Shown: in pieces, positions 2,879-16,378 of the stretch
Layout of the letters: each line of letters begins with the position of its first letter
Position numbering within the stretch: position 1 is the first letter of the stretch
DNA from: a virus
Virus record (IMG/VR): IMGVR_UViG_3300046028_001944
Span: 1-20,447 of that record
Direction: 5' to 3' (one strand)
DNA length: 20,447 bases
Made by a program: the position numbers and the translations under genes
Notes under the pieces: generated by a model
Databases searched by the model: none
Told to the model about the DNA's origin: nothing
What the model saw: the letters and a program-made list of their open reading frames with translations, nothing else

Positions 2879-3469
2879 ATGTTAAACACAACAGTACTAT
2901 TTATAGGAGAGGCGGCACTAAAGCAAGAAAGTGTTATTAGTGAAAACGTAGACCCAAAACTTTTGATACCTACAATCAAAGAGGTTCAGAATATTTATAT
3001 CCTGCCATTATTGGGAACTGCTTTGTATAACGAATTAGTTACGCAAGTAAGTGGCAATAGCGTGAGCGCAGATAACACCATTTTACTTCAGTCGTATGTT
3101 CAACCAACGATGATTAAATACTGCGTGTACGAGTCTATGTTAGATTTAAGTTTCAAGTTCCAGAACAAGAACGTAGCTACTAAATCCTCAGAGTTCAGTC
3201 AGCAAGCAAGTTTGAACGATATTCGTTACTTAATGGATAAGGCTATCAACAGAGCGCAGTATTATGCTGAGCGAGTGACCTTGTTTCTAATGGCAAACAA
3301 CATGAAATATCCTGCTTATTTAAATCAAGGCAATGCAGACATCTCGACAATTTATCCAACCGCTAAGAACTACTCAAATGGGATGTATTTGGGTGGAGAT
3401 ATAGACTGCGATGACATACCTGCAAGAATAAAGTATCAAGGCAATAACCCAAGAAGGTGGATGTTATGA
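2879..3469 (+). CDS. Head-tail connector / adaptor-like protein
   Basis: A mainly helical 196-residue protein starting one base after the portal stop. The segment 'IYILPLLGTALYNELVTQV' (around residues 40-58) followed by long helices and a short tail resembles DUF6712-type neck proteins of Bacteroidota phages. That type usually sits directly after the portal and plays the role of a gp6-like adaptor ring. No enzymatic motif is visible. The stop overlaps the next small ORF in an ATGA arrangement. The function rests on gene order and recalled family resemblance; another neck protein is possible. Confidence 0.6.
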   Translation: MLNTTVLFIGEAALKQESVISENVDPKLLIPTIKEVQNIYILPLLGTALYNELVTQVSGNSVSADNTILLQSYVQPTMIKYCVYESMLDLSFKFQNKNVATKSSEFSQQASLNDIRYLMDKAINRAQYYAERVTLFLMANNMKYPAYLNQGNADISTIYPTAKNYSNGMYLGGDIDCDDIPARIKYQGNNPRRWML

Positions 3470-10115: not shown

Positions 10116-10538
10116 ATGGAAAAAGAATTTATACCTTACAAACAAGCATTAGCTTTAAAAGAACTAGGGTTTGATGAACCTTGTATTTTATTATATAGGG
10201 GTTTAGACACTCAACCAGTTTGTCAAATAGGTTATGAGTTTAAAACAGAAAAAAACTCTGATTATAATGATGAAACAAATTATTGGTTAACAGTTCCAAC
10301 ATACTCCCAAGCATTTAAATGGTTTAGAGAGAAGTATGGATTATATCATTCAATAGGATTAGATGATTCATTAGAAAATAATATTAATTGTGATTATCAA
10401 ATAATAAATCATTCTCAGTCAATATCTGAATTAGAAACAAGTTTTAAATCTTACGAAGAAGCAGAACTTGCTTGTTTAATCAAATTAATAGAAATTGTAA
10501 AAAAAAATGAAACGCACAGAATTAAAACTAAAAATTAA
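10116..10538 (+). CDS. Conserved phage hypothetical protein
   Basis: This 140-residue protein begins 'MEKEFIPYKQALALKELGFD', has 'TVPTYSQAFKWFREKYGL' in the middle and 'SYEEAELACLIKLIEIVKKN' near the end. I recognise this three-block pattern as a hypothetical protein frequent in Bacteroidota phages and prophages, of unknown function. The two flanking blocks look helical and the middle one Trp/aromatic-rich. It uses more AT-rich codons than the gene after it. Its last 32 bases overlap the next gene. Confidence 0.7.
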   Translation: MEKEFIPYKQALALKELGFDEPCILLYRGLDTQPVCQIGYEFKTEKNSDYNDETNYWLTVPTYSQAFKWFREKYGLYHSIGLDDSLENNINCDYQIINHSQSISELETSFKSYEEAELACLIKLIEIVKKNETHRIKTKN

Positions 10539-12440: not shown

Positions 12441-12701
12441 ATGGAAATTCAGGGAACATTAAAACAGATTCTACCATTAGAATCAGGCGAAAGCAAGTCA
12501 GGCAAAGCATGGCAAAAACAAACTATTGTAATAGAAACTCAAGAAACTTACCCAAAGTTAATTGCAGTTGAGGTAAGCGAGAAAGCAATAAGCAGGCTGC
12601 AAGACTACCAAATAGGTCAAACTATTACCTGTTCGATTAATATCGAATCTAGGGAATATAACGGCAGGTGGTTCACATCGGTAAAGGCTTGGAAAATCTA
12701 A
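12441..12701 (+). CDS. DUF3127-type OB-fold ssDNA-binding protein
   Basis: An 86-residue protein that matches the DUF3127 pattern: 'MEIQGTLKQILPLESGESKS', 'WQKQTIVIET', 'ISRLQDYQIGQTI' and a C-terminal 'ESREYNGRWFTSVKAWKI'. DUF3127 proteins are small OB-folds of Bacteroidota and their phages, and next to an exonuclease and annealing protein the likely role is single-stranded DNA binding. It ends at the Trp-Lys-Ile without an acidic SSB tail. Twelve bases separate it from the exonuclease gene. Confidence 0.8.
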   Translation: MEIQGTLKQILPLESGESKSGKAWQKQTIVIETQETYPKLIAVEVSEKAISRLQDYQIGQTITCSINIESREYNGRWFTSVKAWKI

Positions 12702-12751: not shown

Positions 12752-13045
12752 ATGAACCAAGATTTAGTAAACGAATACATCCAATGGTCGCATGAAACTT
12801 TTGGAGATGAAAGATGGCTAGACGTATTATCCAAACTGCGAAACGAAGAAGTTTGGGAGTTTAGAAAGGCGGTAGTCTTGGATGGCAGAAACGAGCAAGC
12901 AGATGAACTAGCAGACTGCTTCTTTCTAATGTTTAAAATGGCTCATTTGACAGGCTTTAACGTAGAAGATATTGAGGCAGCGATGGCAAAGAAATTAATT
13001 GAATTACACACTAGAAAATACATTGAAGGCAAAAGAATTAAATGA
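12752..13045 (+). CDS. MazG/DUF550-like nucleotide pyrophosphohydrolase
   Basis: A 97-residue all-alpha protein with 'W-S-x-E-T-F-G' near the N-terminus, E32/E33-x-x-E36 ('EEVWE') and E52-x-x-D55 ('DELAD') 15 residues on. This is the metal-binding arrangement ExxE(12-28)ExxD of the MazG-like/DUF550 fold. 'K-x-x-x-L-H-T-R-K-Y' near the end is also family-like. It would hydrolyse a (d)NTP to the monophosphate plus pyrophosphate, cleaning nucleotide pools or acting on an alarmone. It is a single compact domain, shorter than full MazG. It overlaps the next start (ATGA). Confidence 0.75.
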   Translation: MNQDLVNEYIQWSHETFGDERWLDVLSKLRNEEVWEFRKAVVLDGRNEQADELADCFFLMFKMAHLTGFNVEDIEAAMAKKLIELHTRKYIEGKRIK

Positions 13046-13386
13046 CACTACTAATAAGCAAACCAAACTTCTATGTTCGAGTTCACGGAGTTAACAAACA
13101 CAAGATTACACTTGATGGCATCATTTGGGCAGTAACTAAAGTAAGCGGATATTCAGAAAAGGAACTAACATCCAACAACCGCAAACGTGAGATAATGTGG
13201 TGGAGGCATTGCATAGCTTACTTAGCTTGTAAGCATACTTACAACAGCCTACAATCAATTGGATTAAGATTAGGAGGGCGTGACCACACTACAATAATGA
13301 ACGCTCGAACCAAGATTCAGAATTATCTAGATTACAAGGATGCGTTTTTTGTAGATAGGATTAAAAAAATAGAAACGCTATTATGA
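13042..13386 (+). CDS. Free-standing DnaA domain IV-like protein
   Basis: A 114-residue protein with the DnaA signature 'GGRDHTTI' at 78-85, preceded by a helix 'R-x-x-x-x-Y-L-A-C-K-H-T-Y-N-S-L-Q-S-I-G' and followed by 'N-A-R-T-K-I'. This is the helix-turn-helix that reads DnaA boxes; the AAA+ ATPase part of DnaA is absent. Residues 1-40 differ from DnaA. It could bind the repeats 280-800 bases downstream, mark a phage origin, or compete with host DnaA. Overlaps at both ends (ATGA) place it in the P2 operon. Confidence 0.85.
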   Translation: MTLLISKPNFYVRVHGVNKHKITLDGIIWAVTKVSGYSEKELTSNNRKREIMWWRHCIAYLACKHTYNSLQSIGLRLGGRDHTTIMNARTKIQNYLDYKDAFFVDRIKKIETLL

Positions 13387-13667: not shown

Positions 13668-13849
13668 AATACAGATAATACAGGTTTACACATTTTTTGG
13701 CTAGTTCATCCATTATAGAAATGATAAAGGCAAAAGTTTTTCCAAAAGTTTCTGAAAAATTGCAAAAATGTGTACTATCTGTCAGGATGCCCGAAAACAC
13801 TAGGCTTTTAAATTTACAATGTGTATTTTCAATGTGTATTATCTGTATT
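13668..13849. repeat. Nested inverted/direct repeat cluster, candidate origin or operator
   Basis: A perfect 14-bp inverted repeat (13668-13681 / 13836-13849, right arm GTATTATCTGTATT) bounds the segment. A second 11-bp inverted pair lies inside (13687-13697 / 13764-13774, AAAAATGTGTA on the right). The 11-mer CAATGTGTATT is repeated directly at 13817-13827 and 13830-13840, a 13-bp period. TGTGTA occurs four times (three +, one -) and TATCTGT three times (two +, one -). TGTGTATTA at 13833-13841 differs by one base from the DnaA-box complement TGTGNATAA. I see no credible gene here. The position between a DnaA-domain gene and the primase-helicase suits an origin. Confidence 0.6.
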
Positions 13850-13897: not shown

Positions 13898-13905
13898 TAG
13901 TTTTG
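13898..13905 (+). promoter_or_regulatory. Possible promoter P3 -7 element before the primase
   Basis: TAGTTTTG matches TAnnTTTG, but no TTG lies 19-21 bases upstream, so the -33 part is weak or replaced by an activator. Transcription from it would begin around 13910-13915, right where the structured leader starts. Confidence 0.4.
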
Positions 13906-13914
13906 TTCTATAAA

Positions 13915-13983
13915 ATCGGGTTTCAGCGGCGGCTGTCTAAAAGGTTTGAATGACCCTTCCCCGATATTTTTTAAGTCATTCAA
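13915..13983 (+). promoter_or_regulatory. Structured RNA leader with predicted pseudoknot
   Basis: Outer stem ATCGGG (13915-13920) / CCCGAT (13960-13965) encloses hairpin CAGC/GCTG (13924-13927 / 13932-13935) and hairpin AAGG/CCTT (13941-13944 / 13955-13958). The loop of the latter holds TTGAATGAC (13946-13954), which pairs over 9 bases with GTCATTCAA (13975-13983) outside the outer stem, making a pseudoknot. ATTTTTT follows the outer stem, so that stem alone would look like a terminator. It ends 16 bases before the primase ATG, so it could control primase-helicase expression. Pairings are read by eye; no known RNA class is recognised. Confidence 0.55.
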
Positions 13984-13999
13984 CTAAAACATTCAAAGT

Positions 14000-16378
14000 A
14001 TGAGTAAAATATTAGTATCAGTATTTAAGAGCGCACAGGATGCCTCTAACCCTTTTCATAGGGCAGTAGAAATTTGCTTACAGCGAATTATCGAAGGTAA
14101 CTCCAAAGAACTTGTAGAAAAGTTTAGATTAACCAAAGAAGATAAGTATAAGAAGCAGTTGCCTGGCGTTTGTTTCAATGGAACTTTTAGCCATAGAGCA
14201 AATAAAAACATTTTAGAACCTAGCGGTTTGATGATTGTTGATTTTGATAAGTTCCCAGATATGGAAATATTAAATGAAACTAAGCAGAGATTAATAAATT
14301 TACCTTATATCTTTTCTGTTTTCATTTCACCATCTGGTAGCGGATTAAAAGCATTGGTTAAGATTCCAAAGGATGCCGAAAACTTTAAAGGTTATTTTAA
14401 TGCTTTTATGGCTGAGATTGATAGCCCTTATTTTGATAAGTCGACAAAGGATATAAGCAGGTTTTGTTACGAAAGTTATGACCCTGAACTATATTACAAT
14501 CCAGAGGCGATTGAATACGATACTATTGAAGTCGAAGAATACACCGAAATTGGTTCAACTTATAGTGATGTGGTAGTTCCGTTAAAATCTGAATCACAAA
14601 TTATTGATAGGCTAACAACTTGGTTCAATAAAAAGTATAGTATGGCAAATGGAGAAAGGAATAGTAATCTTTTCAAATTTGCTATGAGTTTAAACGATTT
14701 CGGCATTAGTCAAATAACTGCATCTAATCACCTGCTTAAATATGCTGAAAAAGACTTTAATGGCAATGAGATACAAGACCTAGTCAATAGTGCCTACAAG
14801 CGTGGTAAAAATACCTTTAGCACAAAGTTTTTTGAAGATAGCAACACTAAGTCACATATTCAAAAACAAATATTAAGCGGCAAACGAATTGAACAAATAA
14901 AGACTAACCTAGAAAGAGCATCTAATCCACATGAAATAGAAACGATTGAGAGGGTTAAGGAATCGATGGAGGTGGATGACTTTTGGAATGTATCAGATAA
15001 GGGTAAAATTTCTTTAAGCCCTCTTAAATTTAAGAAATGGTTAGAGCAAGAAAACTTCATGAAGTATTATCCTGCGGGCGGTAATACTTATACATTCATA
15101 AAAAGACAAGGTAATTTTATTGAGGAAACAAATGAGAAAAGAATAAAGGATTTTGTTTTAGAATACCTGCTTGCCAATGATAAAATAGGGATTAAGCCAT
15201 ACGATTACATAGCAGGCAACCCTCAGTTTTTTACTCCAAACTATTTATCCTTTCTAAAGTCCGCAGATATTAAAATGAAAGAGGATACTCAAACAGAGTG
15301 CTTTATTTATTATGAAAACTTAGCCCTGAAGATTACCGATAACAAGACTGAAAAGATAGACTATCTAAATTTAGACGGCTACGTTTGGAAGAATCAAATT
15401 ATTAATAGAACCTACACAGACACCGACCATCACGAGGCAATATTTAGGGAGTTTATTTGGCTGATTAGCGGTAAGAATAGAGATAGATATAATACTTTTA
15501 AATCAGTTATTGGTTATCTATTGCACACCTTTAAGACATCAGCAAATAACAAGGCTATTATTTTCAATGATGAAACAATAAGCGAGAATCCTAATGGCGG
15601 AAGCGGCAAGGGTGTGTTCTGGAATGCCATCTCTAAGATGAAAAAGGTTAGTATGATTGATGGTAAGTCCTTTGAGTTTACAAAAACTTTCCCATATCAG
15701 ACAGTAAGCACAGATTGTCAAGTACTGGTATTTGATGACGTTAAAAAGAACTTTACTTTTGAATCACTATTTAGTTTAATTACTGAGGGGATAACCATTG
15801 AGTACAAAGGGCAGGATGCAATTAAGTTACCAATCCAAAAAAGCCCTAAAATATTAATTACTACTAACTACACGGTGGGCGGTGTAGGTGGTTCATTTGA
15901 ACGTAGGAAGTTTGAGGTTGAAATGAGCAGCTACTTTAATTCAAACAATACACCTCTTGACCATTTCGGTCATTTATTATTTGATGATTGGGTTGATGAA
16001 GAATGGGCAAGGTTTGATGCTTATATGGTTAATTGCTTGCAGTACTATTTAAAGAATGGTTTAGTTAATAATGAGTTTGGGAATCTTTTAACACGAAAGT
16101 TTATTGTTGAAACTGCTCACGAGTTTTTTGAATGGACTAAAGAAGGAAACATTAAATTAAACGAAAGGCTTTACAAGGGCAAAATATTTGAAGACTTTGT
16201 AAATGAGTTTCCAGACTTTAAGAAGTTTCTTAGCCAAAAGAAGTTTAAGAAGTGGTTAGAACTCTATGCCATATTTGTTGATGCAAAATATACAGAAGGG
16301 AATAGTGTAGATGGCAGATGGTTTCAACTTTCAAAAGATATTATCGAGCCAATGTTTAAAACCGATATTCCTTTTTAA
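14000..16378 (+). CDS. VirE/BT4734-type primase fused to SF3 helicase
   Basis: A 792-residue two-part replication protein. Residues ~55-135 have 'GVCFNGTFSHR', 'GLMIVDFDKF' (D-x-D near 80-84) and 'SPSGSGLKALV', the pattern of the VirE-N/BT4734 archaeo-eukaryotic primase-like domain. Residues ~205-275 ('NGERNSNLFKFAMSLNDFGI', then 'AYKRG') resemble a PriCT-type helical domain. The C-terminal half is an SF3 helicase: Walker A 'GGSGKG' with K537, Walker B 'VLVFDD' at 575-580, and 'ILITTNY' at 618-624. It would prime and unwind at the phage origin. Its start at ATG 14000 follows the structured leader. An SF2 helicase gene follows two bases after the stop. Confidence 0.85.
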   Translation: MSKILVSVFKSAQDASNPFHRAVEICLQRIIEGNSKELVEKFRLTKEDKYKKQLPGVCFNGTFSHRANKNILEPSGLMIVDFDKFPDMEILNETKQRLINLPYIFSVFISPSGSGLKALVKIPKDAENFKGYFNAFMAEIDSPYFDKSTKDISRFCYESYDPELYYNPEAIEYDTIEVEEYTEIGSTYSDVVVPLKSESQIIDRLTTWFNKKYSMANGERNSNLFKFAMSLNDFGISQITASNHLLKYAEKDFNGNEIQDLVNSAYKRGKNTFSTKFFEDSNTKSHIQKQILSGKRIEQIKTNLERASNPHEIETIERVKESMEVDDFWNVSDKGKISLSPLKFKKWLEQENFMKYYPAGGNTYTFIKRQGNFIEETNEKRIKDFVLEYLLANDKIGIKPYDYIAGNPQFFTPNYLSFLKSADIKMKEDTQTECFIYYENLALKITDNKTEKIDYLNLDGYVWKNQIINRTYTDTDHHEAIFREFIWLISGKNRDRYNTFKSVIGYLLHTFKTSANNKAIIFNDETISENPNGGSGKGVFWNAISKMKKVSMIDGKSFEFTKTFPYQTVSTDCQVLVFDDVKKNFTFESLFSLITEGITIEYKGQDAIKLPIQKSPKILITTNYTVGGVGGSFERRKFEVEMSSYFNSNNTPLDHFGHLLFDDWVDEEWARFDAYMVNCLQYYLKNGLVNNEFGNLLTRKFIVETAHEFFEWTKEGNIKLNERLYKGKIFEDFVNEFPDFKKFLSQKKFKKWLELYAIFVDAKYTEGNSVDGRWFQLSKDIIEPMFKTDIPF

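Follow-up and report, generated by a model that had tools for sequence, protein, structure and literature searches.

The leader of the primase-helicase gene in a virus record from IMG/VR (IMGVR_UViG_3300046028_001944, positions 1 to 20,447; this whole 20,447-bp stretch is hereafter called the window) is, on sequence comparison, a new RNA family with no counterpart in Rfam 15. We regard it as almost certain that the structure of this leader is genuine and conserved ahead of phage replication genes, and the leader probably acts, in cis or in trans, on the expression of its replication gene. Our main reading, to which we assign a probability slightly below one half, is that the loop of hairpin P3 selects one of two downstream partners, R1 or R2, and that this choice would govern translation of the replication gene. 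A structured leader had been proposed from the letters of the window (the original prediction); that proposal missed both the R2 copy before the AUG and the coordinated switching of loop, R1 and R2.

The elements of the leader and its surroundings are listed in Table 1. The 6-bp P1, P2, P3, the 9-bp pairing of the P3 loop with R1 and the U-run of the original prediction were all confirmed, and the 9-bp pairing was also recovered as inverted repeat I4 of a repeat scan. In the window, the P3 loop can alternatively pair through positions 13945-13952 with R2 instead of R1. Elsewhere in the window, the R1 core matched once, at 10346, which is the chance level. Single-sequence folding of the window leader gave a minimum free energy of -17.6 kcal/mol and a z-score of -0.46, no better than a shuffled sequence. 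Neither the window nor 14 relatives matched Rfam 15 at the gathering threshold, which agrees with the original assignment to no known class. Therefore, the case for the leader structure was built on its relatives. In the relaxed Rfam search, the window hit Ocean-VII alone (9 nt), and the relative L060 hit SAM-II, AdoCbl-II (both on the minus strand) and SSRC8_2, all far below gathering; a known ribozyme or riboswitch was rejected because it had no Rfam support.

Table 1. Positions of the leader elements and neighboring features in the window.
Feature	Sequence	Position	Strand	Remark
DnaA domain IV-like DNA-binding protein gene		13042-13386	+	PF08299, E 9.9e-19
Intergenic repeats, origin-like	AATGTGTAnTATCTGT; CAATGTGT	13668-13849	+	AATGTGTAnTATCTGT at 13767-13782 and 13831-13846; CAATGTGT copies; inverted copies
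-7 box (TAnnTTTG, Bacteroidota-type)	TAGTTTTG	13898-13905	+	sequence; ends 10 nt before P1
Predicted transcription start		near 13910	+	inferred from the -7 box
P1 5' strand	AUCGGG (ATCGGG)	13915-13920	+	6 bp with 13960-13965
P2 hairpin	CAGC-GGCG-GCUG (DNA CAGC-GGCG-GCTG)	13924-13935	+	sequence and covariation in relatives
P3 5' strand	AAGG	13941-13944	+	pairs with 13955-13958; AAAGG in most relatives
P3 loop		13945-13954	+	sequence
Pseudoknot 5' strand, in P3 loop	TTGAATGAC / UUGAAUGAC	13946-13954	+	9 bp with R1
P3 3' strand	CCUU (CCTT)	13955-13958	+	covariance alignment
P1 3' strand	CCCGAU (CCCGAT)	13960-13965	+	covariance alignment
U-run after P1		13967-13972	+	sequence
R1, pseudoknot 3' strand	GTCATTCAA / GUCAUUCAA	13975-13983	+	ends 16 nt before the ATG at 14000
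R2, second loop-complementary copy	CATTCAAA / CAUUCAAA	13990-13997	+	-10 to -3 of the AUG
Primase-helicase gene, BT4734-like_N / VirE-type, 792 aa		14000-16378	+	PF08800, E 1.7e-21; phrog_28855 and primase/helicase PHROGs

Relatives of the leader (class A leaders) were gathered from IMG/VR phage contigs via primase-helicase loci and DNA patterns. Candidates were chosen by the core pattern and the TAnnTTTG box alone, not by the pseudoknot, which yielded 88 sequence-distinct promoter-linked candidates, 86 of them real and two false (L332 and L078). The class A fold is a three-way junction of P1, P2 and P3, the P3 loop of which is paired with R1 downstream of P1. In a covariance-model alignment of 40 members, which leans to structure, 94.4% of the cells across P1-P3 were paired and 12 of the 16 pairs showed two-sided changes (76 cells compared with 20.6 ± 3.5 in shuffled alignments and with 16 or fewer in slid registers). 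A MAFFT alignment of 28 members, which was not fitted to structure, pointed in the same direction (42 two-sided cells compared with 16.5 ± 2.7). Among the relatives, two-sided changes were present in five of the six P1 pairs (with variants GAGAGG/CCUCUC and AAUGGG/CCCAUU) and in all five P2 pairs, the P2 loops being GGCA, GGCG, UUAGCUG or CCG-type. The cells of P3 were 97.5% paired; its A-U part was almost invariant, and L009 carried AAAGU/ACUUU. The longest U-run after the core measured 4-10 nt across 44 distinct relatives. Finally, a covariance model built from 28 relatives, with the window itself left out and its near relative L005 included, matched the window with 43.5 bits (E 1.9e-10). 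The covariation of P1-P3 and the pseudoknot, together with this match, supports the proposed structured leader RNA of the primase-helicase gene, and the compensatory changes by which it was to be checked were found in relatives for both the 6-bp stem and the 9-bp pseudoknot.

We examined the pseudoknot in the 37 distinct P3 loops among the class A candidates. The best loop-R1 helix had a mean length of 8.16 bp compared with 5.24 bp when partners were permuted (sd 0.18, maximum 5.78 in 1000), and the mean duplex energy was -10.4 compared with -4.0 ± 0.4 kcal/mol; z-values from these permutations overstate significance because the relatives are not independent. P1 and the pseudoknot are compatible, i.e., P1 and the loop-R1 helix do not compete. 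The original prediction had considered that terminator-like and pseudoknot states might alternate; this switch was rejected because R1 lies 3' of the U-run, and is thus made after it, and because P1 can coexist with the pseudoknot.

Most members repeat the R1 sequence between R1 and the AUG; the 3' end of this copy, R2, is typically 1-6 nt from the AUG. Across members, R1 occupies about -25 to -14 of the AUG, R2 occupies about -12 to -2 and in some cases extends as far as the AUG, and the order R1-UUAAAA-R2-AUG is frequent. L093, L150 and L118 are members with a short R2 or none. The mean loop-R2 duplex energy was -6.7 kcal/mol compared with -3.4 ± 0.25 kcal/mol with permuted partners; the tracking of the loop by R2 is statistical, and from it we infer R2 pairing in the RNA. 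G-U wobbles accounted for 5 of 19 internal non-Watson-Crick positions in R1 and 6 of 32 in R2, neither judged to be above 1/6; these counts are compatible both with RNA pairing and with DNA-level repeats such as an operator. The competition visible in the sequence is that of R1 and R2 for the P3 loop, which cannot hold both.

Loop sequences also differ between close relatives. Different loops were found in 31 of 95 phage pairs whose downstream proteins are at least 93% identical, and the differences ranged from one or two bases in some of these 31 pairs to complete replacement in others. Near-identical phages with different loop/R1/R2 sets were L096/L182, L068/L081 and L152/L365. The proteins of L096 and L182 are 98.7% identical, the cores are identical and the upstream 290 nt almost identical; one carries the loop/R1/R2 set CACGCTG / TAGCGTGG / TAGCGTAA and the other CACTGTT / AACAGTGGA / AACAGTAA. 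The comparison of such sequences shows that loop, R1 and R2 change as one unit. Short recombination could be the carrier of the set, and the change may be neutral. The leaders of the three pairs form a natural series for RNA specificity.

The distance from the -7 box to the last G of the P1 5' strand was 8 nt in 40 of 55 members and 9 nt in a further 10, and it was 15 nt in the window's own group. In flavobacteria, the -7 box lies at -12 to -5 (PMC9723704); given this position and the spacing in members, the 5' end of the transcript is expected inside P1 or directly beside it, in line with the original prediction of a -7-like box 10 bases upstream that would start the RNA at the structure. Replication genes of several unrelated families were located downstream in all 85 readable class A leaders. 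The downstream open reading frames belonged to a linked primase/helicase group (BT4734-like_N/VirE, Prim-Pol and DUF3987) in 62 of the 85 leaders and to DUF6291/DnaD-like loaders in 22; the one left, the L364 protein, resembles a DnaD-type initiator as judged by eye. The link to VirE-type primases that had been proposed holds in the window, and the family is broader, as it also includes Prim-Pol, DUF3987 primase/helicases and DUF6291/DnaD-type loaders.

Upstream of the RNA, a DnaA domain IV-like gene was present in 40 of 56 class A loci according to clustering and Pfam, which recover the distant relatives that tblastn with the DnaA-like protein of the window alone misses; the Pfam E-values of five example genes ranged from 4.1e-8 to 1.6e-5, and two of the five exceeded the curated cut-off. 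The repeats of the window sit between this gene and the leader promoter. Iteron-like repeats occupy the same place in other phage groups and vary in sequence with the group (GTTTACAGT in L096 and GGTACACATT in L060), and the repeats suggest an origin bound by the small DnaA-like protein. The order of the module is DnaA domain IV-like gene, iterons, promoter, leader RNA, and primase or helicase-loader gene. Positions 12441-12701 of the window encode a DUF3127 protein (PF11325, E 1.2e-29), possibly a phage single-strand binding protein; 18 of the 56 class A loci have a relative of this gene. The hosts of these phages are presumed to be Bacteroidota from the promoter type, the lack of a Shine-Dalgarno-like sequence and the gene families, not from named hosts.

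A second type of leader occupies the same place upstream of the primase in other phages (L012, L013, L016, L019, L022, L027-L031 and L052). It is an H-type pseudoknot of helices S1 and S2 without the class A core, is located just after a TAnnTTTG box and in several cases has a U-run after S2. The scores of most second-type leaders were above those of all shuffles, the exceptions being L016, L022, L024 and L025, and covariation was clear by eye (CTCTCTGA/TCAGAGAG compared with GTGGTGG/CCACCAC). In L039 and L041, the same arrangement was recognized by eye (TTGGTGG/CCACCAC with ATCCTTTCGG/CCGAAGGGAT); the automatic search chose another helix pair. This type may form an RNA family of its own that serves the same purpose. 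In L026, which encodes a primase relative, the 130 nt upstream of position 3001 contain yet another leader, which is G+C-rich (AAAAGGCGT ... ACGCCTTTT) and lacks the class A core.

We searched for the RNA beyond these contigs. Nucleotide searches of INPHARED phages and plasmids with leader sequences yielded chance matches only, and the matches in the GTDB genome collection, which was scanned for the pattern, likewise looked like chance. In about 780 Bacteroidota genomes (a genus draw of 399 and a phylum draw of 395, partly overlapping), the class A pattern had 14 distinct chance-like matches, none with the P2 hairpin. A covariance search of six genomes, in which 150 candidates were scored per genome, adds weak evidence. 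The class A pattern captures a part of the variation in the family, and hence prophages are likely, but not proven, to lack the RNA. In the named primase relatives Panino, P12024S, elemoE, Leef_1 and ctfjg026, the annotated primase start lies near or overlaps the preceding gene and thus leaves little room for a leader. A literature search that covered mostly open-access main texts gave no description of the RNA.

In our main reading, the mRNA of the replication gene would carry, at its 5' end or close to it, a conserved and structured RNA that acts in cis. With the loop on R1, the start region would be free and the replication gene translated, whereas movement of the loop to R2 would cover the start codon; the balance would be set by a phage protein, a ligand or another RNA. 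In Flavobacterium, low pairing within -20 to +20 accompanies efficient initiation (PMC6847099), and R2 overlaps this zone. We placed partner choice first because the loop holds one partner at once and because of the positions of R1 and R2 relative to that zone. The P1-P3 covariation, the loop-R1 and loop-R2 statistics, the coordinated switching and the link to replication genes were counted in its favor. Against it, we counted the R1 pairing, which is more stable than that of R2 and can form first, the weak or missing R2 in some members, and the wobble counts. The original prediction had seen a cis-regulatory or self-processing layout; a cis-acting leader is the most likely form, and nothing points to self-processing. 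From its place in the replication module, the leader probably adjusts when phage DNA replication sets in or the level that it reaches.

The main rival, which we consider rather unlikely, is antisense control of the kind known from P4 CI or from plasmids. The P4 operon under CI control encodes the alpha primase-helicase. According to this explanation, the leader would terminate at the U-run or be processed, leaving a short RNA; through its unpaired P3 loop, this RNA would bind R1 and R2 of full-length mRNAs in trans and repress the replication gene in proportion to genome copies; loop diversity would then reflect immunity or incompatibility groups among related phages. One loop is indeed complementary to two strands of the same leader, the U-run is conserved, and near-identical phages carry wholly different loop/R1/R2 sets; frequent loop switching would fit trans-acting specificity better than a purely cis switch. 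The leader precedes primase-helicase genes, comparable to P4, in which the pairing of CI RNA with seqA and seqC blocks the replication genes (PMC4825925). However, a pattern scan called no terminator in the window, P1 is a short junction stem, recombination and neutral drift could equally yield loop diversity, and there was no sign of lysogeny, with no true member in the approximately 780 Bacteroidota genomes searched with a pattern for part of the family.

Autogenous control is improbable in our assessment. A replication or single-strand binding protein would recognize the pseudoknot and spread over the A/U-rich stretch to the AUG, in the manner of gp32 on its own T4 mRNA. The frequent R1-UUAAAA-R2-AUG order resembles T4 gene 32 mRNA, in which a 5' pseudoknot is followed by a segment of lower structure that contains UUAAA/UAAA repeats and the start site (PMC535899). 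However, the downstream families are unrelated and the RNA core is the same, so there is no single shared encoded product, and a shared self-binding product in the style of gene 32 is unlikely. In addition, this mechanism does not explain why R2 follows changes in the loop sequence.

We hold a 5'-end protector, in which junction and pseudoknot block 5'-dependent decay as in exoribonuclease-resistant RNAs, to be very unlikely: the predicted transcription start within or next to P1 and a topology like that of flaviviral xrRNA with PK2 (PMC8571300) would suit it, but R2, its site at the AUG and the loop switching are left unexplained. It is just as doubtful that the transcript primes or opens the origin, with loop, R1 and R2 serving partly as DNA-level sites, because the constant R2 at the AUG and P1 at the promoter fit an mRNA leader better and P1-P3 show RNA-level covariation, despite the DnaA domain IV-like gene and iterons directly upstream and the exclusive association with replication genes.

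This family combines extensive compensatory change with an occurrence only before phage replication genes of several unrelated families, which suggests that what stays constant in the module is the RNA rather than the protein downstream. With it, RNA-based control of phage replication can be put to the test in a phylum from whose phages few regulators are known; the coordinated switching likewise allows RNA-based specificity among co-infecting phages to be tested directly. A widespread specificity system of Bacteroidota phages, in which the loop and its two targets switch jointly, control the replication gene and decide which co-infecting phages repress each other, is a far-reaching and, in our view, unlikely extension.

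Several known systems share parts of this arrangement. In ColIb-P9 repZ, an IncI/IncB-type plasmid system, a leader loop pairs with a strand just upstream of the start of the replication gene and loop specificity matters, as would be the case here; unlike the phage leader, in which neither was found, it has an antisense Inc RNA and a leader peptide. Flaviviral exoribonuclease-resistant RNA of subclass 1a has the same P1/P2/P3 three-way junction, in which the P3 loop and a strand located 3' of P1 form PK2 (PMC8571300); sequence, place and host are different, and the likeness is one of predicted topology, in the junction and PK2. The gene 32 leader of T4 and RB69 likewise combines a phage replication gene with a 5' pseudoknot and then an A/U-rich start region, as found here; however, the T4 pseudoknot is about 28 nt, the gene encodes a single-strand binding protein, and no second loop-complementary strand is described (PMC535899). 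P4 is temperate, and the targets of CI lie up- and downstream of CI, acting via transcription termination, whereas in the phage leader both partners are downstream, at the start codon, the three-way junction and pseudoknot are conserved, and a trans-acting RNA is hypothetical. Nevertheless, both place RNA control in the leader of replication genes and have one segment complementary to two others, i.e., CI with seqA and seqC (PMC4825925) and the P3 loop with R1 and R2.
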